In this document: positions 215 through 12,425 of the stretch, one piece after another | How the letters are laid out: every line of letters starts with the position of its first letter | Position numbering within the stretch: position 1 is the first letter of the stretch | Assembly (NCBI GenBank): GCA_030591685.1 | Contig: JAUVAX010000017.1 | Span: 1 to 45,060 of the forward strand | Length of the DNA stretch: 45,060 nt | DNA from: Pseudobdellovibrionaceae bacterium | GTDB taxonomy: Bacteria > Bdellovibrionota > Bdellovibrionia > Bdellovibrionales > UBA1609 | Reading direction: 5' to 3' | Translations under genes and position numbers: made by a program | The notes under the pieces: model-generated | Database searches by the model: none | Seen by the model: only the letters and a program-made list of their open reading frames with translations | Told to the model about the DNA's origin: nothing

Positions 215-2377
215 TCATTTCAAAATAAAAAGCGGGTTACCGTAATATATTTTTTTTATTTTTGGAGGGATCGTTATTTTTTTAATATAAATGTTGTCGT
301 CGTCATTTAATGGTCTTGGGCTGTGATTATAAACCCATTCGGGTGGGATTATTTTGTAGATGTACTCATCGTTTTTTATTTTTGATCTAATGACTCGATC
401 ACCTGAGGTGCCAACCCATCGAGGTAAGCCCCAGGGTAAATCTACTCTGGGGATAGAGATAAGGGCTTCTGAAAACTCCATCTCTGATCGAGTCCAAGTT
501 TTTGTCTGAAGGACCTTGTTAAAAGCCTGCTGATACTTTGTGGGTAAAAAATCTATGCCATGTGTAATGCTCATATCGACAAAAGAACGTTTATTTAATG
601 AAACCACCGGTATGTTATAGTTATCTAATAGGCCGTCATTTAAAAGTGATTCGGCACAGGGCCCGAGTACAAAAATTAATTTAATATTAAATTTATTGTT
701 TGAGTTTTTGATGAGTTTCTCCCAGACAGCACGCCTCCAGGGTTGAGTCAGGTATATCAGCGAGTCCATTTTGTCCTGGCTTAGCCCTAGAGTGTCAAAG
801 GGGAGTGTTCTAAGGATCGTGTAGTTAGTCCCTGCTTTTATGCTATATAAAAGGCTTTGTAGCCGTTGACCCTCAAAACCAGTGAGGGCTCGACCTGAAA
901 AGGTATCATCGTGGGATTGTTGGTCGGCCAGTATTAACACTTCAGTTTGATGGGGGCGCCCACGATAAAAAGATTTTGACCCATTAGAGCGAGCTGAAGT
1001 ATTAACTAAGAGCAAAGATGTTTCACTGTGGGGTTTAAATACATCCCTATCAGGGGAGGGGACATCATGACGAGCTCCTGTGAACACTTCGGCCCAATAG
1101 GCTCCAGGGCCTCGATCAAACTTTAAGAAGCCAATTTTTGAAGGCTCCCAAGGGACATTTTTAAATATATGATCTGAAGCATCGGCAAAGGGTGTTGGTT
1201 TTTCAAAATAGGATTTGTACATATCTTTAGTTGAAAACTTAAAAGAACCATTTTGTTTTGAACCAAAACTAATAAAAAGTCGACCGCTATTTTTTGAACG
1301 AGGAGTGAAGCTCTCTTGAGTGGTGAGTGTCTCTGGCCCGCTGGCCAGTTGAGTTACCCCAAAACTATAATCTTTGAGAGGTATTGGACTTTTAGTTAAC
1401 CTAAAGGGGTGGCCTAAGACAAAATCAGATTTATTTTTCAGAGTCATGGACCAAGTGCTGTCGTAAGTATGCCACTTTTTTAATAATGAAATTGTGCGCT
1501 TGATTTTTAACTCATAATCTACGACCCCTGGTGAGTGAGCCGGCCATGATAAAAAATGAATAACCTTAAGCTTCTCTGAGAAAGGGTTTATGAAAACACC
1601 CTTGTCGCCTCTAAAACTACAATCGTTAAGGTTCACGCCATATTGATAAGGCGTAATAAGTGATATTTTATTTTTTTTAGCAAACTGTTGAGCAGATAGT
1701 TTTGACACAGCACTTGGGCACTTTAGCCCCTTAGATGTGAGGTATGTTGCAAGGCTATCAGAAGCCGAACGACCAATAGTGATAATGAGTTCAAGCGAAC
1801 CCTTGTTGGACTGAGCAATGTGGTCTACTAGCTTATGTCTCCATTTAACAAGTGGGCTTAGAGGGTTTTGGGCCAGCTGATACATCTTATGATCAACAAA
1901 ATTAACACTGACTGATTTAGCCCCCAGTTGAATGGTTACTGGCTTTGAGTAGGGCTCCGTGAGGGGGTATGAAAATGCGTTAATGAGTAAATAGTTGGAT
2001 TCATACCCCAGGTAATTAATTAAACTTTGCGCATATCCCCCAAGGCTCGAGCTAAAGGCACGGTGAGTGACTTGGGAGCTACGATTAGGGGCTGGCCCTA
2101 TGATTAATACTTTAACCTGATTTTGGCCCAACTGACCACGATAAAAAGTGGGGCCGTACTCCCAACTAAAGGACTCTCGGCCCATAGTAGCCATGGAGAG
2201 GGCTCTGTAGTTCGGCGAGGTCGAGAAAATCCGAGCATACTCAGCGCCTACAGTAGTTCGAGGATCCGGTCCGATGTCATGATCAGATAAAAGGCCCCTT
2301 TGATCACCGTAAACTAAAAGTGAGGTGGCTACTACTGATAGTAAAGTAAAAATAAATTTAGTCGTGCAATTAAGCAT
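215..2377 (-). CDS. Secreted protein with two uracil-DNA-glycosylase-like halves
   Basis: A protein of about 720 residues. The start is placed at ATG 2377 because GGAGAG lies just upstream; an in-frame ATG at 2395 has no such site. Residues 1-24 form a signal peptide (LNCTTKFIFTLLSVVATSLLVYG). Two regions follow the motif order of the uracil-DNA glycosylase superfamily. The first has VLIIGPAP (about 90-97), a G/F-rich loop with YAQSLINYLG (115-124), YLLINAF, ITIGRSASDSL (about 200) and WPAHSPG (His about 281). The second has VLILADQ (480), GRALTGFEGQRLQSLL (495-510) and FVLGPCAESLL (about 570). Known members act on DNA in the cytosol, so an exported tandem copy probably does something else or acts on extracellular or prey DNA (inference). 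The fold call rests on motif spacing read by eye. The gene stands alone and converges on the partial gene at the left edge. Confidence 0.72.
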   Translation of the reverse strand: MLNCTTKFIFTLLSVVATSLLVYGDQRGLLSDHDIGPDPRTTVGAEYARIFSTSPNYRALSMATMGRESFSWEYGPTFYRGQLGQNQVKVLIIGPAPNRSSQVTHRAFSSSLGGYAQSLINYLGYESNYLLINAFSYPLTEPYSKPVTIQLGAKSVSVNFVDHKMYQLAQNPLSPLVKWRHKLVDHIAQSNKGSLELIITIGRSASDSLATYLTSKGLKCPSAVSKLSAQQFAKKNKISLITPYQYGVNLNDCSFRGDKGVFINPFSEKLKVIHFLSWPAHSPGVVDYELKIKRTISLLKKWHTYDSTWSMTLKNKSDFVLGHPFRLTKSPIPLKDYSFGVTQLASGPETLTTQESFTPRSKNSGRLFISFGSKQNGSFKFSTKDMYKSYFEKPTPFADASDHIFKNVPWEPSKIGFLKFDRGPGAYWAEVFTGARHDVPSPDRDVFKPHSETSLLLVNTSARSNGSKSFYRGRPHQTEVLILADQQSHDDTFSGRALTGFEGQRLQSLLYSIKAGTNYTILRTLPFDTLGLSQDKMDSLIYLTQPWRRAVWEKLIKNSNNKFNIKLIFVLGPCAESLLNDGLLDNYNIPVVSLNKRSFVDMSITHGIDFLPTKYQQAFNKVLQTKTWTRSEMEFSEALISIPRVDLPWGLPRWVGTSGDRVIRSKIKNDEYIYKIIPPEWVYNHSPRPLNDDDNIYIKKITIPPKIKKIYYGNPLFILK

Positions 2378-3551: not shown

Positions 3552-5300
3552 ATGAGAAATAAGTGGTTTCAATTTATGGGTGTATTGCTCGTTGGTGTAA
3601 TCGTCGTTGCTTACTCGGTTATTATAGGTGTTGGTGATTCGGATACAGCTATACAAAGTAAAGTGCTCACCAGTACTGAGAACAATCAAATAGCTGAAAA
3701 CCAAGCCGAAATGAAGCAGCTTAAAAGCCTTATAGAGGAGGCCTTAGTTTGGAGAGTCATGGCACGCTCCTCTTATGAAGAAATCAAACCCTTTCTTAAT
3801 GGAAACACCAGTATCCCTCAGGAGGTACAAAATGCCATTGTTAAGGAGTCTTTGGGGTATTTGAAATTACGTAAAAAAATTATGTCATTAGCAGTAAAAT
3901 ACAAAAAATACTTAACAGGCTATAGACTTAAGCTGTCTTTAAATAAGAAATCAGGAATTGTCTCAGAGTCTGTTAAAGAACTTGACCATGGTAATTACAA
4001 TGGGAAAGGGCGAAACAGAAAACATAAAGACACTCTAGTTATTAACCCGCTCGATGAGAAGGGCCAACAGTACATAAGAAGTTTAAAAATTTCATTGTCA
4101 GCAGCATTGGTCTTATATGATAACTTTTTAGTGGGAGTGTTTCCCTATGCTGATAATAAAATTGTACGAAAAAAAATTAACCAAGACAATCTGGAGCTTA
4201 AGGGGGCGCTTGGTGATATTGAGGACAGCTACTATGCTTGGGGACCAAGACTTCTTGTGGAGGACGCCATTGGACTCTTTGAAGAAGAACAAAAATTCTT
4301 AAAAACAAAGCTAGGCCAAACTCTTGTGATGAGTGAGGATGCCAGGTATTTAAATACTCTTATTAGTTCGAGTTTATCTTATGAGGAGCTGAGAGATATA
4401 AGTATTATTAAGGTCTGGTGGAGTCGATTTGTAAAACGACACGATCAAAGAATGGACGTCTATAGAGGGGTAAAAATAGAGTCTACAAACGCTATTAGTA
4501 AGCTTTTTGGTAACTCTATGGGTATTTTTGAGTCCAGAAAAGGGTTTCTCTATAGCAATGAGGAACTTTCTGCAAATATACAAGCCCAACTCAAACCTCT
4601 TGATATACTTTTAGAGAAGACACCTTTTAGGCTTACAGATTCATTTATACCAGGTCACTGGGGCCATGTCGCCATATGGGTGGGGAGTGAAGAGGAGCTT
4701 AAGGCCATTAAGAAAAATGGAGTTTCGGCTTGGGACGCTTTAGGTGCCAACTTTGGCAATAAAGGCCCTGAGATGCAAGAGAGCATAGCCACCAATCACC
4801 GTATTGTAGAGGCCCTCAGACCAGGAGTTATGATTAATACATTAAATCATTTTTTAAACATTGATGACTTAGGTGTTATGAGAAGAAGTGCCAGCAATAA
4901 CCTGACTGATGCGCAAAAATTTGACTACCTTATGCTTGCTTTTAAGCAAGTCGGTAAAGAGTACGATTTTAATTTTGATGTAAACACAGATGACAAAATA
5001 GTTTGCTCTGAACTTATTTATAAAGTTTACCCTCATGATGCTTGGCCAACAACAGAGTCCATAAACCGCTGGACGATTTCTCCGGACAACGTTGTTGAAC
5101 TTGCTGTGGAGCGCGAGGGAGAGGGTTATCAGTACGACATACCTCTGCTCTACTCAGCAGGGTTAGAAATATCCGGTGATTCAGAGCATAAAAGAGAGAA
5201 AATGAAGCGGTTGCTACTGTATAGCTATGAAGATCAGGTCGCAATATTAACAAAAAAAACCAAACCTATAAAAACAGCGGTGATCAATGAACATAAGTAA
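3552..5300 (+). CDS. Membrane-anchored YiiX/C92-like permuted papain-fold protein
   Basis: A protein of 582 residues. One N-terminal membrane segment (about 8-27) is followed by a long helical region (40-350), then a domain resembling the YiiX/YebB permuted NlpC/P60 papain-fold family. That family places the catalytic His before the Cys: here GHWGHVAIWVG (His 369 and 372), RIVEAL (Glu 420) and KIVCSELIYKVY (Cys 485). Relatives hydrolyse amide or ester bonds, in some cases lipid or peptidoglycan linked. The ATG has a good site (AAGGTGA). The gene leads a three-gene unit: it overlaps the following lipoprotein gene by 14 bp, and that one overlaps the phospholipase D-like gene by 11 bp. The protein is anchored at the inner membrane, probably facing the periplasm (inference). 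The helical half is unrecognised. Confidence 0.78.
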   Translation: MRNKWFQFMGVLLVGVIVVAYSVIIGVGDSDTAIQSKVLTSTENNQIAENQAEMKQLKSLIEEALVWRVMARSSYEEIKPFLNGNTSIPQEVQNAIVKESLGYLKLRKKIMSLAVKYKKYLTGYRLKLSLNKKSGIVSESVKELDHGNYNGKGRNRKHKDTLVINPLDEKGQQYIRSLKISLSAALVLYDNFLVGVFPYADNKIVRKKINQDNLELKGALGDIEDSYYAWGPRLLVEDAIGLFEEEQKFLKTKLGQTLVMSEDARYLNTLISSSLSYEELRDISIIKVWWSRFVKRHDQRMDVYRGVKIESTNAISKLFGNSMGIFESRKGFLYSNEELSANIQAQLKPLDILLEKTPFRLTDSFIPGHWGHVAIWVGSEEELKAIKKNGVSAWDALGANFGNKGPEMQESIATNHRIVEALRPGVMINTLNHFLNIDDLGVMRRSASNNLTDAQKFDYLMLAFKQVGKEYDFNFDVNTDDKIVCSELIYKVYPHDAWPTTESINRWTISPDNVVELAVEREGEGYQYDIPLLYSAGLEISGDSEHKREKMKRLLLYSYEDQVAILTKKTKPIKTAVINEHK

Positions 5301-6456
5301 ATATTTAGCTGCGGCGAGTTTTATATTATTAATAGTTTCTTGTCAGTCATCTGAAAAGCCTTACCAAACGACAAGGGGACCTAGCTCTGAGGGTGAACTG
5401 CCTATTAAGTTTTCTCAAGCTCAAATAAGTATGATGAAGGATATGTTTTTAGCAGATCAAGTGCCAGGCACCCAAAAATTAAAAGTCACTACTGAGTTTC
5501 GCTCGGACTATAAAAATAAGGATTTTATTAAAAGAGCTAAAAACGCTATAAAACGCTCTATGATGAAGACCTTTCAAGCGGAAAACCCAAGTCGTGATGA
5601 GGATAATGATAAAAATAAAGACGATTTTTCAAGCCGCTTAAAGGAAAACCTAATAAAGGCACTAATGTCAGAATTTGTATTTAATTTAAAATTTTACAAG
5701 CTCATAAATGGTAATATATCGTTTAGCGTATTTTTGCTCCCAGAGCCAGTGGACAGTGATAATTTATTTAACGAGTACAATAATAATAACTTTGTAGATT
5801 TAAATCACTTTTCTGATTTCTCTGACATTGGTAAAGAGGCAGGGGGAATTATAAATGCCCTAAATTTAAAGTACTCTGAGCCGGGTGAGTATGTTGATGG
5901 TTATAAATATTTAGGGGGTGCTATTTTTTTGAATGTTAATTTTGTAGACCTTGGCGTTCTTAAAAAAGAAATTTTAAATGGTGAAATTGTTTACAGAAAG
6001 TACTACCGAGCCAGTGACGAGAGGTACCCTGTTAATTATGTGGCTTTGAAAACTAAACTCAAAGACGCTGCCTTTACGGGGGTGAAAACGGTAACAGTAG
6101 ACATCACTAAAGAGTTTAACCTTGCAGAGACCACGCCTAAATTAAAAGACATGCAGATCCATTTTGGTGGGCTTATGTATCATGGCAAAAGAGATTATAG
6201 CTCTAAGCTGCAAATATATGACTCTAATAATCGCGCGGTTATTGATATAAACGCACTTAATTATAACTTTGAAAGCAAGGTGTTTGATTTGGCCCGGTCA
6301 AGAACAAGGGAGACCGTAAAGTCTACAGGGGGAGGTCGAGGCTCTGGAAAGCCAATTCGGAGAAATCGTACGCCAAAATTATCAGATTTATTAAAAAATA
6401 ATAAAGACAAATTTATAGAGGCTTTACATTTAAAGAGGTTTTGGAATGAAATATAG
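5287..6456 (+). CDS. Lipoprotein of unknown function
   Basis: A protein of 389 residues. The first 20 form a lipoprotein signal peptide ending in the lipobox IVSC, so the mature N-terminal Cys is residue 19. The body is rich in Asn, Asp and Lys and shows no domain I recognise. An acidic Asp/Asn/Lys-rich stretch lies near residues 100-120, and a Gly/Arg-rich stretch precedes the C-terminus. The gene starts inside the end of the upstream YiiX-like gene and runs 11 bp into the downstream phospholipase D-like gene, so translation of the three is probably coupled. This context suggests an envelope partner of the two enzymes. Confidence 0.8.
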   Translation: MNISKYLAAASFILLIVSCQSSEKPYQTTRGPSSEGELPIKFSQAQISMMKDMFLADQVPGTQKLKVTTEFRSDYKNKDFIKRAKNAIKRSMMKTFQAENPSRDEDNDKNKDDFSSRLKENLIKALMSEFVFNLKFYKLINGNISFSVFLLPEPVDSDNLFNEYNNNNFVDLNHFSDFSDIGKEAGGIINALNLKYSEPGEYVDGYKYLGGAIFLNVNFVDLGVLKKEILNGEIVYRKYYRASDERYPVNYVALKTKLKDAAFTGVKTVTVDITKEFNLAETTPKLKDMQIHFGGLMYHGKRDYSSKLQIYDSNNRAVIDINALNYNFESKVFDLARSRTRETVKSTGGGRGSGKPIRRNRTPKLSDLLKNNKDKFIEALHLKRFWNEI

Positions 6457-8572
6457 CGCACTGTTAGTTATTTTTGTGACTCTGCCACTTTTTGCAAAAT
6501 TTGATGTTCAAGATCGAATTTTAGCTCAAGAAGTGTTGTATGATAATTATGAGGCTGTATTTGGTGACTCTAAGTATGCGCGGATCGACGAGTTTAAGAA
6601 ACATGTGAGGTCTTTAAAGCGCTCCAAAAAAAAATCAGTGAGTAAGTACTTAATGGCATTACAAGATAAGGTGCCCGTTAAATTTTTAATGCCTATGGTT
6701 TACTGGAAGGTTATAGATCCGAACAATGAAAAGCTAAGGCAGGTTTTTAAACTTTTTATGAGTTACCGGTTGAATGTATTAAGAGATGTCATCGATGACC
6801 CTCTTGAAACCAAAGACAAAAAAGTGAGGGCGTTGGCACTGCTTAGAACAATTTTAAACTCTCAAGTAGTAACAAGTAATAATATTTCGACTCAATCAAA
6901 GGGCCCTATAAAACGAGCCTCCTCAAGGCTTGCAAACGCTCAAGGCCGCTCATCTTTTATTAATGGGGTCTTGTCTGAACCATTGATAAGCACCCCCATT
7001 TCACATGTTGAAACTAAATCATTAAGCTGGTTAGGGTATATACCTGGTAACAAGGTAGAGCATATTAGCAAAAATGACGTGAGTGTGATGCGTATAGAGT
7101 GGATAAATGAAAACGTCATATTTAATAATTTAAATAGGGGTATTGAATGGGATAAGCCCCATTTTAAAATGCCCGAGAGTGTGAGCGCAATAGGCAACCC
7201 TGTGTTTAAAGACCCTGTGTTTGCTCGTATTAGGGATATGGTCCGCGACGCTAAAGAGTCAATTTTTATAGATATATTTTTGTTCGGCGGCACAATGGGT
7301 GCCACCCTATCAAAGTACATTGTTGAGAAAACAATTAGTGAAAATAAGAAAAACAATAAATTTAAAACACTAATACTTCACGATTTTGCCACTAATTATA
7401 ATATGAAGCCCGAGATGATGCCTATATTTAATTATTTGCGAGATGAAATTAAGGGAAATGAGTACTTAAAGTCATGCCAGTGCTTGATACTTTTACAGGC
7501 AAATATTCAGAGGCACACTCCGGGAGTACCTTTTGGACTATCAAACCTTGTACCTAAAACTAAAGAAGCTTTTGAAATGATTGAGCAAAAAAATACTTAT
7601 TATGAGTCTAAAATTGACCACTCAAAAGTTATTGTTGTGGATGCAAAATCAGACAGGCCGAAGGCTTACTTTGGCTCAAAAAATTGGTCTGACCATAGTG
7701 GGGCCTATTATTATGATGATGTTATGTATGTAGAGGGGCCTGGGGCTGCTCTTGTACAGTCCTCTTACTACTACGATGTAGAGGCGGCTTTAACAACAGA
7801 TGCTTTTGAAAAAAGCAGGTTTTTCTTTAGAAGTCAGGGGTTCTCAAATGACCACTACTTGGCAAGAAGTTCAGAAATTTTAGACTTCATGAAGATTAAG
7901 AGGAAATACTACCCTGCTGTTGGCAATCAAGTGGTGAGATTTGCAGAATCAAATGTGGATGGCACGGTAAAGAATGTACGTAATATGATAATAAATATGA
8001 TTGAAAAAGCAGAGAGTTATATTTATATGGAGCAGTTATTTATTTACGATAAGTATATAAATGACGCCCTTATAAAGAAAAGGAAAACTCACCCTAAAGT
8101 AGAGATACGTATTCTCGCCGACCATAATGGAAATTTTGAAATGAATGGGTTTCCGAACACCATGTTTATAGCTGAGTTGCAAGCTGTAGAGGTTAACGTT
8201 CGTGCATGGAGAACAGAGCACAGCGAGGCAACCTTTCCTGACGGCACCAAAAGAATGTATCACCAGGAGAACCATAGAAAGATCTCATCAGTGGATGGAA
8301 AGATAATGATGGTGGGGTCCTCAAACATGAACCCCGACACCTTTCAGGGAAGCTTTAGAGAGTTTGGTGCCCAGGTTTATGACACTGTTGAAATTGAAAA
8401 ATTTGAATCACGATTTAAATCAGCCTGGAGTGACAGTGATAAGACTGAGAAGTTTGTAGTGAAAAATATGAAGGTCAAAGGCCATGAGTTTTCTAAAGAG
8501 TTAACAGAGCTGTTTAATAGCTTTATTCGCCAGCTTGTTAGAATTAAAGATGATCTGGAAAAACGCCATTAG
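6446..8572 (+). CDS. Secreted phospholipase D-like protein with two HKD motifs
   Basis: A protein of 708 residues with a signal peptide (KYSALLVIFVTLPLFA). It carries two HxKxxxxD motifs: HSKVIVVD (His about 392) followed by YFGSKNWSDHSG, and HRKISSVD (His about 610) followed by MVGSSNMNPDTFQ. Paired HKD motifs are the active site of the phospholipase D superfamily, which includes phospholipases, cardiolipin synthases and nucleases. Export, and the pairing with an envelope papain-fold enzyme, favour a phosphodiesterase acting on lipids or nucleic acids outside the cytosol. The substrate cannot be read from sequence. The first 200 residues are helical and unrecognised. The frame stops at TAG but stays open for 33 more codons after it. 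Confidence 0.86.
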   Translation: MKYSALLVIFVTLPLFAKFDVQDRILAQEVLYDNYEAVFGDSKYARIDEFKKHVRSLKRSKKKSVSKYLMALQDKVPVKFLMPMVYWKVIDPNNEKLRQVFKLFMSYRLNVLRDVIDDPLETKDKKVRALALLRTILNSQVVTSNNISTQSKGPIKRASSRLANAQGRSSFINGVLSEPLISTPISHVETKSLSWLGYIPGNKVEHISKNDVSVMRIEWINENVIFNNLNRGIEWDKPHFKMPESVSAIGNPVFKDPVFARIRDMVRDAKESIFIDIFLFGGTMGATLSKYIVEKTISENKKNNKFKTLILHDFATNYNMKPEMMPIFNYLRDEIKGNEYLKSCQCLILLQANIQRHTPGVPFGLSNLVPKTKEAFEMIEQKNTYYESKIDHSKVIVVDAKSDRPKAYFGSKNWSDHSGAYYYDDVMYVEGPGAALVQSSYYYDVEAALTTDAFEKSRFFFRSQGFSNDHYLARSSEILDFMKIKRKYYPAVGNQVVRFAESNVDGTVKNVRNMIINMIEKAESYIYMEQLFIYDKYINDALIKKRKTHPKVEIRILADHNGNFEMNGFPNTMFIAELQAVEVNVRAWRTEHSEATFPDGTKRMYHQENHRKISSVDGKIMMVGSSNMNPDTFQGSFREFGAQVYDTVEIEKFESRFKSAWSDSDKTEKFVVKNMKVKGHEFSKELTELFNSFIRQLVRIKDDLEKRH

Positions 8573-8874
8573 TCGGTTGCCGCACACCAAATGCCGGCAA
8601 AGTACAGAGTACTTATTGAAAAACCTAAGGTACTATCTGAGGCCAAATCAGCACCAACTGGTCTCATTTAGAGACATAAAAATAATTATTTCACTTCATG
8701 AGTTATCGGTGAATAAGAGCAGAGTAAATGATTACACTTTTTTAAAGTAAACTGTCTATTTTTAAACTGACAGGTGTCAATGAGGTGATCACTTTAAGGG
8801 CTCAGCTCGAACAGACAAAGGCCTCACTTGGCACCCCTTTCGCAACATAAGTAGGTATAACAGGGGGTTATGTT
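8573..8874. other. Intergenic region after the PLD-like gene
   Basis: About 300 bp. The PLD-like reading frame continues past its TAG for 33 codons to TAG 8670-8672, including an ATG at 8592 that would give a 26-residue peptide (MPAKYRVLIEKPKV...). A perfect hairpin (AAGTAC, 3-base loop, GTACTT) sits at 8600-8614 without a T-run. I see no convincing terminator, or promoter for the next gene. Confidence 0.4.
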
Positions 8875-9513
8875 GTGGACCATAAAGATGATGATAATGT
8901 GATTCAGTTTCCGAAAATAAAAAAGCGTAAAAATCAGACTTCTGGAAAGGTTGTTTACGCCTTGGAGCAAAATAAAGTGATGATTTCGGGCTCGTTAATA
9001 TCAATTTTGATAGTCATGTCATTTTTTAGCAATAGTTTTTATAAACAGAACCCTGAGAAACAACATAGAAGCTTAGCCTCAACGAGTGAAACAAACAGGG
9101 ATACTCAGTGGGAGCACAAGTTAGCAAAAAAACTATCTTTAGTTAAAATGAGAGAACTTGCGAGTATGGGCAAACCGCCGAGTCACCTAGATGTATTAAA
9201 GTACGAGGAACTTCAAGGTAAATATATTGTTCGTATAGGCAGAGAGGACAATAAAATTAAAGAAATTATATTTGCCAACTCAATTTCAATTAGTGAAAGG
9301 CCAAAGATGCTTAAAGACCGAGTGGGATTTATTCAAAACCACAAGGTGCTCTTCCCTGAATATGATGAGGTTGTTCCTGTTAAAATTCATGATGACCGAT
9401 CTGGAGAGACATACCAGCTACAAAGGAACAGTAAGAACATCGCCACTGTGGACTTTAGGCTAGATAAGTATGGACATCTATTGCAAATGAACGTCCAGAA
9501 GAGCACTTACTAG
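8875..9513 (+). CDS. Small single-pass membrane protein, unknown
   Basis: A protein of 212 residues from a GTG start preceded by a G-run (AGGGGG) about 8 bases upstream. The ATG at 8870 is in another frame. Residues 1-35 are charged and include VIQFPKIKKRK. One membrane segment follows (about 41-57, ISGSLISILIVMSFFSN). The remaining roughly 150 residues look like a soluble domain with beta-strand character (KYIVRIGREDNKIKEIIFAN); I do not recognise it. Positive-inside charge predicts the soluble domain lies in the periplasm. It is the first gene of a unit with the RDD and rhomboid genes, 45 bp ahead of the RDD gene, so it may be a partner or substrate of the rhomboid protease (inference). Confidence 0.75.
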   Translation: MDHKDDDNVIQFPKIKKRKNQTSGKVVYALEQNKVMISGSLISILIVMSFFSNSFYKQNPEKQHRSLASTSETNRDTQWEHKLAKKLSLVKMRELASMGKPPSHLDVLKYEELQGKYIVRIGREDNKIKEIIFANSISISERPKMLKDRVGFIQNHKVLFPEYDEVVPVKIHDDRSGETYQLQRNSKNIATVDFRLDKYGHLLQMNVQKSTY

Positions 9514-9558
9514 TGCGAAGAGTTTTATAAATGACCGGCTTTTATCCGATATATACTC

Positions 9559-11445
9559 ATGGTATTAGACGATTATTTATTAGCACAGAAATCTAATAAA
9601 TCTAAAATTAATGAGCGCCCCACCAATGGCAATTATATCTTTGCAGATGTGCTTGATAGAATGGCGGCCTTTATAGTGGATTTGTTTTTAATATTTATCC
9701 CTATCATGAAGCTCATCTCTGCGCCATTTAATACAAGTATTTATGATTTAAAATATTTAGGGCAATTGGACCAATTAGATATCCATCGGCTTTGGATTGT
9801 TGGACTCTATGTTTTATGCTATCTGCTTTATCAATCATTTTTCTTGTCAAAGTATGGTGCCACACCAGGAAAGAAAATTTTCAAAATAAAAGTTATTGTT
9901 CTTTTTACCCGCGAAACGCCAGGGGTGTTTAGCTCTATCATTCGCACAGTCTTTATTTTATTTGAGGTGATGATGTTTCCGGTCACTTTATTTATGTTTT
10001 TAACCCATAAAGACCGAAGGATGCTGCATGACCGGGTTGTGGACACAATCACGGTTTCTACAAAGGCTAATTTAGTAAAATCCCACCCTGTTGAGATTTC
10101 ATATGTGAAGGCCATGTACACTTCCTTTTTATTGATGTATTTTATGTTAGCTATTGCACCTGTTTTTATGGGTGGTAGTTTTGAGAGTGTAGCTAAAAAT
10201 AAAACCCCTGATAAGTGTTATAAGCTAGAAAGTTATAATACGCAGGAGTTTTCAAAATATGTGTCAACATTTTTAGCCGGTAAACAAAGTCTTGATTGCT
10301 TTGATGCTAATGCGAGCTTGGCACTAGATATAAAGGAAACAAGGGAGCAAGGCTACGTAGCTAAATTTTTATCAATAAAAAAAGCTAATGGAAGTTTTAA
10401 GCTCCTAAAGAGCTATAAAGACAGGATTTGTAATACAAGCAGCATTGCGTGTAAGGTTGCAGATCATATGCTGTACGGTAAAAGATCAAAAGTAAAGGTA
10501 GAGAAACTATACACTCAAATTCATAGGGCTAGTAAGTCGCCGTTTAATGTTTGGTTACTAGGTAAAATGTTAAAAGAGAACAATTATAAAATGGTGAGTA
10601 GATTCTCTAAAAGAGCTGCCATAGATAGCTCAATTAAGGATTTTTATGGTGCCGCTAAAGTGAAGCTGCTTTGGGCGTTTAAGGACCGGTCAAAATCAAC
10701 TCGATTGGCCAATAAACTTTTTAAAGGAACGTCGTCAGTGGTAACAACAGAGTTAGCTCAGTGGATGTGCTATAAAAAATTAAATGTGTCATGCGCATTA
10801 GCGGAGGCCCCCTCTTGTGAGAAATTTTTGAAAGGGTTTTTGTCTAACCCTTCGACACCCATGAGTGAGCTTACATATATAAAGACGGCTGAGTGTAATG
10901 CACAAGGGGAAGAGCTAGGGCAGGTGTATAGCGACACCTCTAAATTAGTTGAGAACGTTAACTCGAAAATACTATTATATGCATTAAATGCCTTTGATAA
11001 TGGGGAGTTTGAAAAGAGCTTTGGACATTTAAAGACGCTCTTAACATCAGAGACATCTGATGATAATTATAAGAAAGAGGCGGCGTTAAGAATGATTAAC
11101 ATGAGCCTTAACCAAGAGCAGTGGTCAGAGGTTTATGCTTGGTGGCTTTCGGCCCATCATAGCCTTGAGTGGGAGCAGGTGGGCGTGGCACTGCTAGCGA
11201 AGAATAACAAGTTTGGCACCTTTGATGTGGCCGCTAAGATTTCTGTAAGTCTTGAGGGGTACCTCAATCAAACGCCAGGCGTGTTACAACAAATGATCAT
11301 TGCCCACTATTATGCCGGCAATAAACTAAAGGCTGGGCAAATCTATAAAGGTTTTAAAAAGAGTGCCCCGCTCAGGGGTACAGCTAGTGTTGAGAAGCTA
11401 TTTAAAGAGGCCGAAGATCAATTAAAAAAAGGTGGACATAAATGA
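9559..11445 (+). CDS. RDD-domain membrane protein with long helical C-terminus
   Basis: A protein of 628 residues. Residues 30-180 match the RDD family: FADVLDRMAAFIVDLFLIF (Arg and Asp of the first helix), then YGATPGKKIFKIKV and HKDRRMLHDRVVDT. These span about three membrane segments, with a fourth near 195-211. RDD proteins are small membrane proteins, some of them implicated in ion transport. The C-terminal 400 residues are soluble, Cys-bearing in their first part (KCYKLE, SLDCFDA, RICNTSSIACK) and built of repeated helices that look TPR-like. The whole resembles an RDD membrane anchor carrying a large helical-repeat domain. The stop overlaps the rhomboid start by 4 bp (ATGA), so the two are co-translated. 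No clear ribosome-binding site precedes the ATG. Confidence 0.82.
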   Translation: MVLDDYLLAQKSNKSKINERPTNGNYIFADVLDRMAAFIVDLFLIFIPIMKLISAPFNTSIYDLKYLGQLDQLDIHRLWIVGLYVLCYLLYQSFFLSKYGATPGKKIFKIKVIVLFTRETPGVFSSIIRTVFILFEVMMFPVTLFMFLTHKDRRMLHDRVVDTITVSTKANLVKSHPVEISYVKAMYTSFLLMYFMLAIAPVFMGGSFESVAKNKTPDKCYKLESYNTQEFSKYVSTFLAGKQSLDCFDANASLALDIKETREQGYVAKFLSIKKANGSFKLLKSYKDRICNTSSIACKVADHMLYGKRSKVKVEKLYTQIHRASKSPFNVWLLGKMLKENNYKMVSRFSKRAAIDSSIKDFYGAAKVKLLWAFKDRSKSTRLANKLFKGTSSVVTTELAQWMCYKKLNVSCALAEAPSCEKFLKGFLSNPSTPMSELTYIKTAECNAQGEELGQVYSDTSKLVENVNSKILLYALNAFDNGEFEKSFGHLKTLLTSETSDDNYKKEAALRMINMSLNQEQWSEVYAWWLSAHHSLEWEQVGVALLAKNNKFGTFDVAAKISVSLEGYLNQTPGVLQQMIIAHYYAGNKLKAGQIYKGFKKSAPLRGTASVEKLFKEAEDQLKKGGHK

Positions 11446-12425
11446 ACGTTCCTTTTTTAATCCCTTTTTTGAAAGGTTTTATGCGGTTTTCAAAGGCTCC
11501 GATCACTTGGTGTATTGTTTATTTGAATATTGTTGTCTATATCATGACGGGAACAAATACATCTACGGTAACAGAAGGCTGGAGTGACCTTGTTAAAGAT
11601 AAGCAAGTACTCAAAGTACAAGGTCGCCTTTATATGGATTTTATAAATAACCACCCGGAACAGTACGAGGGTGTCGTAAAACAATTTGCTCAAAGGGCTA
11701 GAGACGGCGAGGTGCATTTAATTAAACAGCTCGCTTCATTTTCGTTTACAGATAAACTATTTATATCAGTAGCTACAAAGGGGCTTGTGGCCAGCGATGC
11801 AGTGGCTTACGGGTGGTGGCAGAAGCAATTTTTAGAGCAAAAAAATAAGTTCTCTGAGCTCCCTCGTAATGTTTTGTCGGTAAAAGGTGTTGGACCCAAT
11901 TTAATATCTTGGGTGACGTATCAGTTTGTACATGCCGACATTATCCACTTACTGATTAATATGATTTTTGTATTAATTTTTGGAGCTTACTTGGAGCGCT
12001 TTCTTGGGAGCTTTAGGTTTTTAATGGTGTACTTGTTCTCTGGATTTATTGCAGCAGGGGTGTTTTTAACGTTTAATGACATAACATTAGCCCCTTTAAT
12101 GGGAGCCAGTGGGTCGTTAAGTGGTGTTATGGCCTTTTTATGTATTATACTTTGGAAGAGGCCAATAAAGTTTTTTTACATTTTAATGATCCCTATAAGG
12201 CGGTACATGGGGGTTGTAAAGTTACCAGCGTGGGTGGCTTTTGCATTGTTAATCATTAATGACTTGTCCGGTTTTTTATCTAAACCTCAGATGTTTGTTG
12301 AGGTGGCCTATAGTGCTCACTTAGGGGGAGCGTTTATAGGGACAGTTTTAGCTGTATTATATATTGCGGTTAAAAGAGCTGAGCGTTCTAGAGTATTGGT
12401 GGCTCAAAAAATTCACAAGCTCTGA
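11442..12425 (+). CDS. Rhomboid-family intramembrane serine protease
   Basis: A protein of 327 residues. The rhomboid core runs from about residue 155 to 320: HADIIHLLINM (His 169, Asn 173 of the oxyanion hole), LMGASGSLSGVMAF with the GxSG nucleophile (Ser 223), and YSAHLGGAFIG with the partner His 293. Rhomboids cut membrane-anchored substrates inside the bilayer. Before the core is a first membrane segment (20-37) and an inserted soluble loop of about 110 residues (41-150), larger than in the simplest bacterial rhomboids. The gene is translationally coupled to the RDD gene upstream. The single-pass protein at 8875-9513 is an obvious candidate substrate by neighbourhood. It converges on putA with only 20 bp between. 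Confidence 0.93.
   Translation: MNVPFLIPFLKGFMRFSKAPITWCIVYLNIVVYIMTGTNTSTVTEGWSDLVKDKQVLKVQGRLYMDFINNHPEQYEGVVKQFAQRARDGEVHLIKQLASFSFTDKLFISVATKGLVASDAVAYGWWQKQFLEQKNKFSELPRNVLSVKGVGPNLISWVTYQFVHADIIHLLINMIFVLIFGAYLERFLGSFRFLMVYLFSGFIAAGVFLTFNDITLAPLMGASGSLSGVMAFLCIILWKRPIKFFYILMIPIRRYMGVVKLPAWVAFALLIINDLSGFLSKPQMFVEVAYSAHLGGAFIGTVLAVLYIAVKRAERSRVLVAQKIHKL

Follow-up and report, generated by a model that had tools for sequence, protein, structure and literature searches.

DNA glycosylases are known as cytosolic or nuclear repair enzymes, and lately as antiphage enzymes as well. BdiUNG (Blr0248) of Bradyrhizobium diazoefficiens, the described uracil-DNA glycosylase (UDG) closest to the proteins studied here, reportedly stands for a new UDG class with broad substrates, a preference for single-stranded DNA, a dimeric state and an unusual motif B. 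Excerpts of a review describe a broad substrate range for BdiUng-like enzymes (PMC8307549), and excerpts of another source describe Brig1 as an antiphage DNA glycosylase of the UDG superfamily (PMC11078745). We analyzed a stretch of 45,060 nucleotides (the window) on contig JAUVAX010000017.1 of a Pseudobdellovibrionaceae bacterium. Sequence profiles, a structure model and the family-wide conservation of both a duplication and a signal peptide identify the product of one of its genes as an exported tandem protein with the UDG fold. The gene and its main parts are as follows.

215..2377, minus strand: coding sequence of the exported tandem UDG-fold protein, 720 amino acids (ATG at 2377, stop codon at 215-217; Pfam UDG match and family alignment)
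2306..2377, minus strand: signal-peptide-like N-terminus, residues 1-24 (hydropathy 2.64)
1445..2257, minus strand: UDG-fold domain 1, residues 41-311 (VIA-align to 4zby and 5gn2)
278..1120, minus strand: probable UDG-fold domain 2 with conserved tail, residues 420-700 (equivalent region 332-584 of homologue L075, and the second-half profile of cytosolic relatives, both given below)

The likely start, the ATG at 2377, is followed by MLNCTTKFIFTLLSVVATSLLVYG, which resembles a signal peptide and contains the best 10-residue hydropathy of the N-terminus (2.64). An alternative GTG start at 2395 would add six residues (726-residue frame), and the frame from 2395 to 215 on the minus strand is intact.

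Pfam UDG (PF03167) matches the window protein in domain 1 only (residues 90-215 of the 726-residue frame), where its score of 25.2 bits exceeds the cut-off, 24.3 (E 1.9e-5). The best solved-structure match to the sequence is Blr0248 (5gn2, E 6.1e-6). The AlphaFold model of the protein (pLDDT 80.5, pTM 0.86) has BdiUNG as its best Foldseek match (E 1.1e-10). In VIA-align, it superimposes on BdiUNG 5gn2 over residues 29-463 with Z 19.6 and on family-4 UDG and UdgX structures within residues 40-312 with Z of about 11-13.4, the highest of these values being that for 4zby over residues 41-307; over domain 1, Z against UDG structures ranges from about 9 to 20. The model of homologue L075, the cytosolic form from Pseudozobellia, is of higher quality (pLDDT 92.3, pTM 0.92), and its best Foldseek match is again BdiUNG (E 7.1e-13). 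Its first half (residues 23-233) aligns with family-4 UDG at Z 12.6 and its second half (residues 332-584) with BdiUNG at Z 23.6. Domain 2 of the window protein, which has no separate VIA-align listing of its own, probably adopts the same fold, judging from the L075 model and the alignment. The UDG superfamily layout proposed in the preliminary description is thus borne out by the Pfam score and the structural matches. Its frame of reference was UDG families 4 and 5 and SMUG; the closest kin proved instead to be of the BdiUNG type (Blr0248, 5GN2).

One further structural match lies outside the glycosylases. The family-A DNA polymerase of phage phiLo (PDB 9qhs_A, residues 34-205) aligns with residues 54-232 of the L075 model at Z 8.6, and this comparison with a predicted structure suggests a UDG-like region in the phage polymerase.

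The duplication is apparent in the window protein and in the family. The loops at residues 93-97 (IGPAP) and 482-486 (ILADQ) lie 389 residues apart, and each half continues with a G..L-type helix start, a core strand (N133 and R523, respectively) and an I-x-x-G-x-x-A strand-helix, with the segments IITIGRSASDSLATYL and IFVLGPCAESLLNDGL. When profiles of the N- and C-terminal halves of 15 family sequences were compared, they matched with a probability of 99.6 and E 8.5e-24 over 223 columns, including a common tail, IPxxDLPxG...GSSGDR, that is also found in Blr0248. Half-profiles built from 10 cytosolic members each match Blr0248 (5gn2), the first at E 1.6e-25 and the second at E 7.2e-7. The two similar regions about 390 residues apart, noticed from the sequence alone, therefore stand as a true duplication, and a chance pattern as the origin of the two-loop layout was rejected on the Pfam match and the half-versus-half score. 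Two parts of the second module were delineated.

866..928, minus strand: second loop and helix start ADQQSHDDTFSGRALTGFEGQ, residues 484-504 (D485, A497, G500, G503 and Q504 invariant in 51/51 members)
395..454, minus strand: module tail IPRVDLPWGLPRWVGTSGDR, residues 642-661 (like the tail that ends the first half in the family; resembles BdiUNG 224-243)

The protein is present in 15 of the 58 genomes searched, which comprise the window's own genome (one of the 15) and its relatives. A genome-collection scan with a 13-sequence alignment yielded 71 loci, mostly in Bdellovibrionota; 70 of them have usable frames (L115 is too short). One structure alignment was made of the window protein and 50 of the 70 relatives, and another of 32 relatives without the window protein. 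Pfam UDG is found at E <= 0.01 in 42 of the 51 members of the first alignment, and other families give a single weak match in a single member.

Export is a property of most of the family. Signal-like N-termini, scored with a home-made hydropathy-and-charge rule, occur in 58/59 members of the exported group and 0/11 of the cytosolic group, a contrast that is partly by construction, as the two groups were first drawn from the N-termini. The only exported-group member without one, L046, starts at a contig edge. Independent support for the split comes from the tree, which includes 10 of the 11 cytosolic members and unites them in one clade (support 100/99). The signal peptide that had been noticed ahead of the two UDG-like regions is therefore a common feature of the exported group, where N-termini are hydrophobic or carry lipoboxes. 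It also makes it very improbable that the N-terminus is an artefact of a start placed too far upstream in an ordinary cytosolic repair enzyme: membership of the UDG superfamily would fit such an enzyme, but the exported group shares these N-termini in 58 of its 59 members, and the window genome has a separate 228-residue Ung (L116) that carries GQDPYH and HPSPLS and lacks a signal-like N-terminus. The presence of this ordinary cytosolic Ung makes a repair role unlikely for the tandem protein, and its identification as a normal repair enzyme was rejected.

The cytosolic clade comprises records from Gammaproteobacteria, Woeseiaceae, Acidobacteria, Acidimicrobiia, Saprospiraceae, Pseudozobellia, Campylobacterales and Phycisphaerales. 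This distribution over several phyla suggests horizontal spread; single cases could be contamination of metagenome-assembled genomes, but the Pseudozobellia record is from a named strain, DSM 19858.

The catalytic motifs were compared across the 51 aligned members, with the following positions in the window protein.

2075..2098, minus strand: motif-A position of domain 1, residues 94-101, GPAPNRSS (GQ[E/D] here in 50/51 members)
1523..1558, minus strand: motif-B position of domain 1, residues 274-285, HFLSWPAHSPGV (HP[G/T/S] in relatives)

In domain 1, motif A is GQ[E/D] in all members except the window protein and is followed by G or A, not P. At motif B, H is present in 51/51 members and P in 50/51, so that HP is complete in 50 and the window is again the exception: it has H274-F275 where its 50 relatives have H-P, the H of WPAHSPG being found seven positions further along, a placement that depends on the alignment. 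The view that the first half keeps a late UDG-like H in WPAHSPG was thus not upheld, the domain-1 motif set being lost in this copy. Domain 2 has no HP motif. Columns that are at least 90% conserved among the other 50 members number 26 in domain 1 and 28 in domain 2; the window protein breaks 9 of the former (17 kept), more than any other member, and none of the latter. Domain 2 is therefore better retained in the window than the domain that carries the motifs in its relatives. With its domain-1 active site eroded, the window member is probably, to judge from these residues, a binding or regulatory version, or one with an altered specificity carried by domain 2.

The same erosion, together with an end branch that is the longest in the tree (2.11), raises the prospect of a dead or dying gene that would tell little about the family. 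We consider this doubtful, because the 720-codon frame is intact, all 28 conserved domain-2 columns and the signal peptide are kept, and the genome retains a complete copy of the NADAR-like partner described below.

Enzymes of nucleobase or nucleic acid type accompany the family. A constant companion is a NADAR-like protein, present in 15/15 carriers of the tandem gene versus 3/43 non-carriers among the 58 genomes and in 7/7 carriers versus 1/29 within the window's own family; p-values for co-occurrence are uncorrected for phylogeny, and the within-family count is the better guide. In a second set of 26 genomes reached via other loci, which overlaps the first (the L051 genome is G039), it is found in 13/15 exported-type and 0/11 cytosolic-type genomes. 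The gene lies in the flanks of 7/70 loci, with a signal-like N-terminus recognized by eye, and its product keeps E, K and a late DH like phage NADARs. The copy in the window genome (L119:1459-2085, contig C36) is complete and has a signal-like N-terminus. In L045, the genes for all three proteins (NADAR-like, amidohydrolase and tandem UDG) are neighbours.

The amidohydrolase is the largest neighbour cluster (23/70 loci; the next has 7). Its Amidohydro_1 match is above the cut-off, and HxH, HxxEG, H and D are conserved in all 22 aligned sequences, two fragments among the 24 cluster members being left out. It directly follows the UDG gene in 10/11 cytosolic loci (the exception is L060), with several gaps of 3-15 bases. 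The compartments of the two proteins agree in 21/22 testable loci, the start of the L071 amidohydrolase being excluded, and in exported loci the amidohydrolase has a signal-like N-terminus in 12/12 cases. The scanned amidohydrolases of L075 and L076, from the cytosolic clade, are fusions with an S41 peptidase, that of L075 with a CPAF-like S41 match; no S41 domain was found in the exported-locus amidohydrolases scanned (L045, L048 and L052). In several phyla, cytosolic UDG and amidohydrolase/S41 make up a second two-gene system, as yet uncharacterised.

In 6/70 loci, the gene for an exported ExeM/NucH-like nuclease stands next to the tandem gene in divergent orientation, and the window genome also encodes such a nuclease (L118). 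It was rejected as a specific partner, being too common with or without the UDG gene. MutY-like (4 loci) and DEAD-helicase-like (6 loci) neighbours were likewise rejected as partners and probably reflect local synteny.

Several arrangements around these genes are recorded as observations in their own right. Genes for amidohydrolase-S41 fusions of about 1100-1200 residues follow the cytosolic UDG in L064:7785-11390, L072:5058-8411, L075:7827-11123, L076:7800-11153 and others, the fusion itself having been scanned in L075 and L076. In the gammaproteobacterial locus L060:5992-11516, a gene for a reprolysin-like metallopeptidase stands between a cytosolic UDG and an amidohydrolase with a signal peptide. 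Genes for AAA_16/NB-ARC-like, patatin, caspase C14 and S8 peptidase proteins lie near cytosolic pairs (L067:3-2441, L067:12612-13781, L072:1697-2512, L062:9554-10777) and are reminiscent of conflict-system islands. Marine-type loci (L059:5538-11104, also L061, L077 and L079) have an operon-like order of exported tandem UDG, a protein of about 185 residues, a lipoprotein of about 290 residues and amidohydrolase, L077 without the small protein; representatives of the small protein and the lipoprotein had no Pfam match. In both family branches, the tandem gene is preceded at a distance of 0.8-5 kb by a gene judged by eye to be MutY-like (L048:1070-2074, L052:742-1761, L088:4285-5238, L092:1024-1995). 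Beside the window gene, a glycosyltransferase-2-like gene lies upstream in the same orientation, and the contig ends 214 bases past the stop codon, so that the downstream neighbour lies outside it. A plus-strand run at 3552-12425 of the window encodes a C92 permuted-papain peptidase, an unknown protein with a lipobox-like start, a PLD-like protein, a small unknown protein, an RDD protein and a rhomboid.

The family thus combines the UDG fold, a conserved duplication and an export signal with an association with exported enzymes of nucleobase or nucleic acid type, and the preliminary description's view of an exported tandem as a new setting for glycosylases was confirmed across the family as regards export and duplication. 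One theme fits this set of exported enzymes (N-glycosidases of the UDG and NADAR types plus a deaminase-like amidohydrolase): nucleobases would be released and processed outside the cytoplasm. Gene context favours such an extracytoplasmic function, whether in action on prey or foreign DNA or through a repurposed fold; substrate, direction and biological use are what we infer.

We hypothesize, at somewhat less than an even chance, that the exported tandem of BdiUNG-type modules is part of an extracytoplasmic module that cleaves nucleobase N-glycosides. The tandem would have arisen by duplication of a whole module, the UDG fold with its IPxxDLPxG..WxGxSG tail. BdiUNG itself is reportedly a dimer; if so, the tandem would be a fused dimer of one catalytic and one non-catalytic module. 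Domain 1, in the family at large, would hydrolyse the nucleobase N-glycosidic bond in single-stranded or fragmented DNA or in a nucleotide outside the cytoplasm, and domain 2, without an HP motif, would serve as a fused partner subunit for binding. The exported gp30.3/NADAR-like N-glycosidase, in part of the family the guanine-deaminase-like exported amidohydrolase, and perhaps the ExeM/NucH-like nuclease would complete the task, with prey or environmental nucleic acid as the probable target.

Several observations weigh against this hypothesis. No activity is known for any family member. The window copy lacks GQ[E/D], GQ142 and HP, all present in nearly every relative, and has the longest branch. 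Both companion assignments lie below curated cut-offs: the NADAR-like protein matches Phage_30_3 and NADAR at that level in 7/7 scanned cases, and so does the amidohydrolase its best families (guanine deaminase, TRZ/ATZ hydrolase and 8-oxoguanine deaminase). The amidohydrolase is near just 2/35 genes of the long clade and was not found in the window genome with single-sequence queries, the compartments do not agree in L060, and the S41 fusion of the cytosolic clade is unexplained by base salvage. The ExeM-like nuclease is in 42/58 genomes, in 14/15 carriers versus 28/43 non-carriers.

Some of these companions would also suit a repurposed fold with a substrate other than DNA: the tandem would act on a nucleoside-like small molecule or a base-ADP-ribose adduct (cf. 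YbiA/NADAR on riboflavin intermediates), or would have a binding function alone. Excerpts of two sources describe NADARs as cleaving base N-glycosides, guanine-ADP-ribose among them, and as acting on riboflavin intermediates (PMC11543638, PMC11125620). The constancy of a NADAR/gp30.3-like partner, the resemblance of the amidohydrolase to free-base deaminases and the S41 fusion, which points away from plain DNA breakdown, are in keeping with this idea, but domain 1 retains the motif set of a DNA glycosylase family, and we regard it as unlikely.

The surroundings of the cytosolic pairs bear on a different explanation, a part in inter-bacterial conflict. Like a Brig1 moved outside, the protein would then serve as an effector or counter-measure, damaging or repairing DNA with modified bases that belongs to prey, a competitor or a phage. 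Two scanned cytosolic loci lie near caspase, patatin and AAA_16/NB-ARC-like genes, Brig1 is a precedent within the superfamily, and excerpts of PMC7159879 mention rare DNA-glycosylase effectors in conflict systems. On the other hand, most carriers are Bdellovibrionota genomes, the proteins have an N-terminal signal but lack a further Pfam domain, and searches with L075 of 50,697 phage and 72,556 plasmid records gave no match. In PADLOC, the window protein, L075 and L045 had no match, but the database (PADLOC-DB 2.0.0, 2023) is older than the 2024 Brig1 paper and no direct comparison with Brig1 was made; the amidohydrolases had none either, and the NADAR-like protein of L081 had one weak match. 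The window protein itself has no relative among viral contigs, in NCBIfam or in PHROGs. We hold a conflict role to be decidedly improbable.

A further reading, about which we are rather sceptical, would be a base-excision module of Bdellovibrionota outside the cytoplasm. In it, the tandem UDG and the NADAR-type N-glycosidase, joined in part of the lineage by the amidohydrolase, would strip, release and deaminate foreign (prey) nucleobases, and the same glycosylase-amidohydrolase pair would be a cytosolic, horizontally spread two-gene system elsewhere. In a bolder variant, the amidohydrolase would deaminate bases first and the glycosylase would then excise them.

A conserved family that exports a duplicated glycosylase module with two other nucleobase-type enzyme families would put this fold in a new location and probably to a new use. 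It hints at an unrecognised extracytoplasmic route for taking DNA bases apart. How predatory bacteria handle the bases of prey DNA, modified ones included, becomes testable on identified genes such as that of Bdellovibrio sp. qaytius (locus L048), whose genome is complete.

In the open-access literature, we found no secreted, periplasmic, exported, extracellular or tandem (uracil-)DNA glycosylase, no paper pairing Blr0248 with uracil-DNA glycosylase and, among the matches listed, none linking papers on NADAR, YbiA or uracil-DNA glycosylase with Bdellovibrio. Excerpts of two sources state that DNases are secreted into prey by predators of this phylum and that the secreted nucleases Bd0934 and Bd3507 of Bdellovibrio bacteriovorus are thought to degrade prey DNA (PMC7925074, PMC12546842); the word 'glycosylase' is not in the main texts of either. 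Like the tandem UDG, these nucleases are exported, but they cut the backbone, whereas a UDG-type enzyme would remove bases. The gp30.3-type NADAR enzymes resemble the companion in the Phage_30_3 and NADAR matches and in E, K and late DH, and differ from it in the companion's signal peptide, a term absent from PMC11125620 and PMC11543638.

Among the glycosylases, Brig1 shares with the family the superfamily and, as suggested here, a role outside ordinary repair, but acts on phage DNA inside the cell. Family 1 Ung is set apart by GQDPY and HPSPLS, which the window protein does not have and the genome's own Ung (L116) does. Family-4 UDG and UdgX have the fold in common with the family (Z about 10-13), and two cytosolic members match UdgX and family-4 profiles weakly (E about 2e-4 to 3e-4, far below NCBIfam cut-offs), but the family lacks their motif A, GE[A/G/Q]PG (given as such in excerpts of PMC10359453). 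BdiUNG (PDB 5gn2, 5gn3, 5gnw, 5grk) is the closest by profile (E 2e-27) and by fold (Z 19.6-23.6 for the window protein and L075). It shares the GQ-D of the motif-A region, the NTF strand and the GQ loop, and its residues 224-243 match the module tail. The family differs in having G or A in place of P after GQ[E/D] and perhaps in its HP motif, the comparison covering BdiUNG outside residues 160-187. Finally, BdiUNG is a single module of 272 residues, whereas the family described here is a fused tandem that is exported in Bdellovibrionota.

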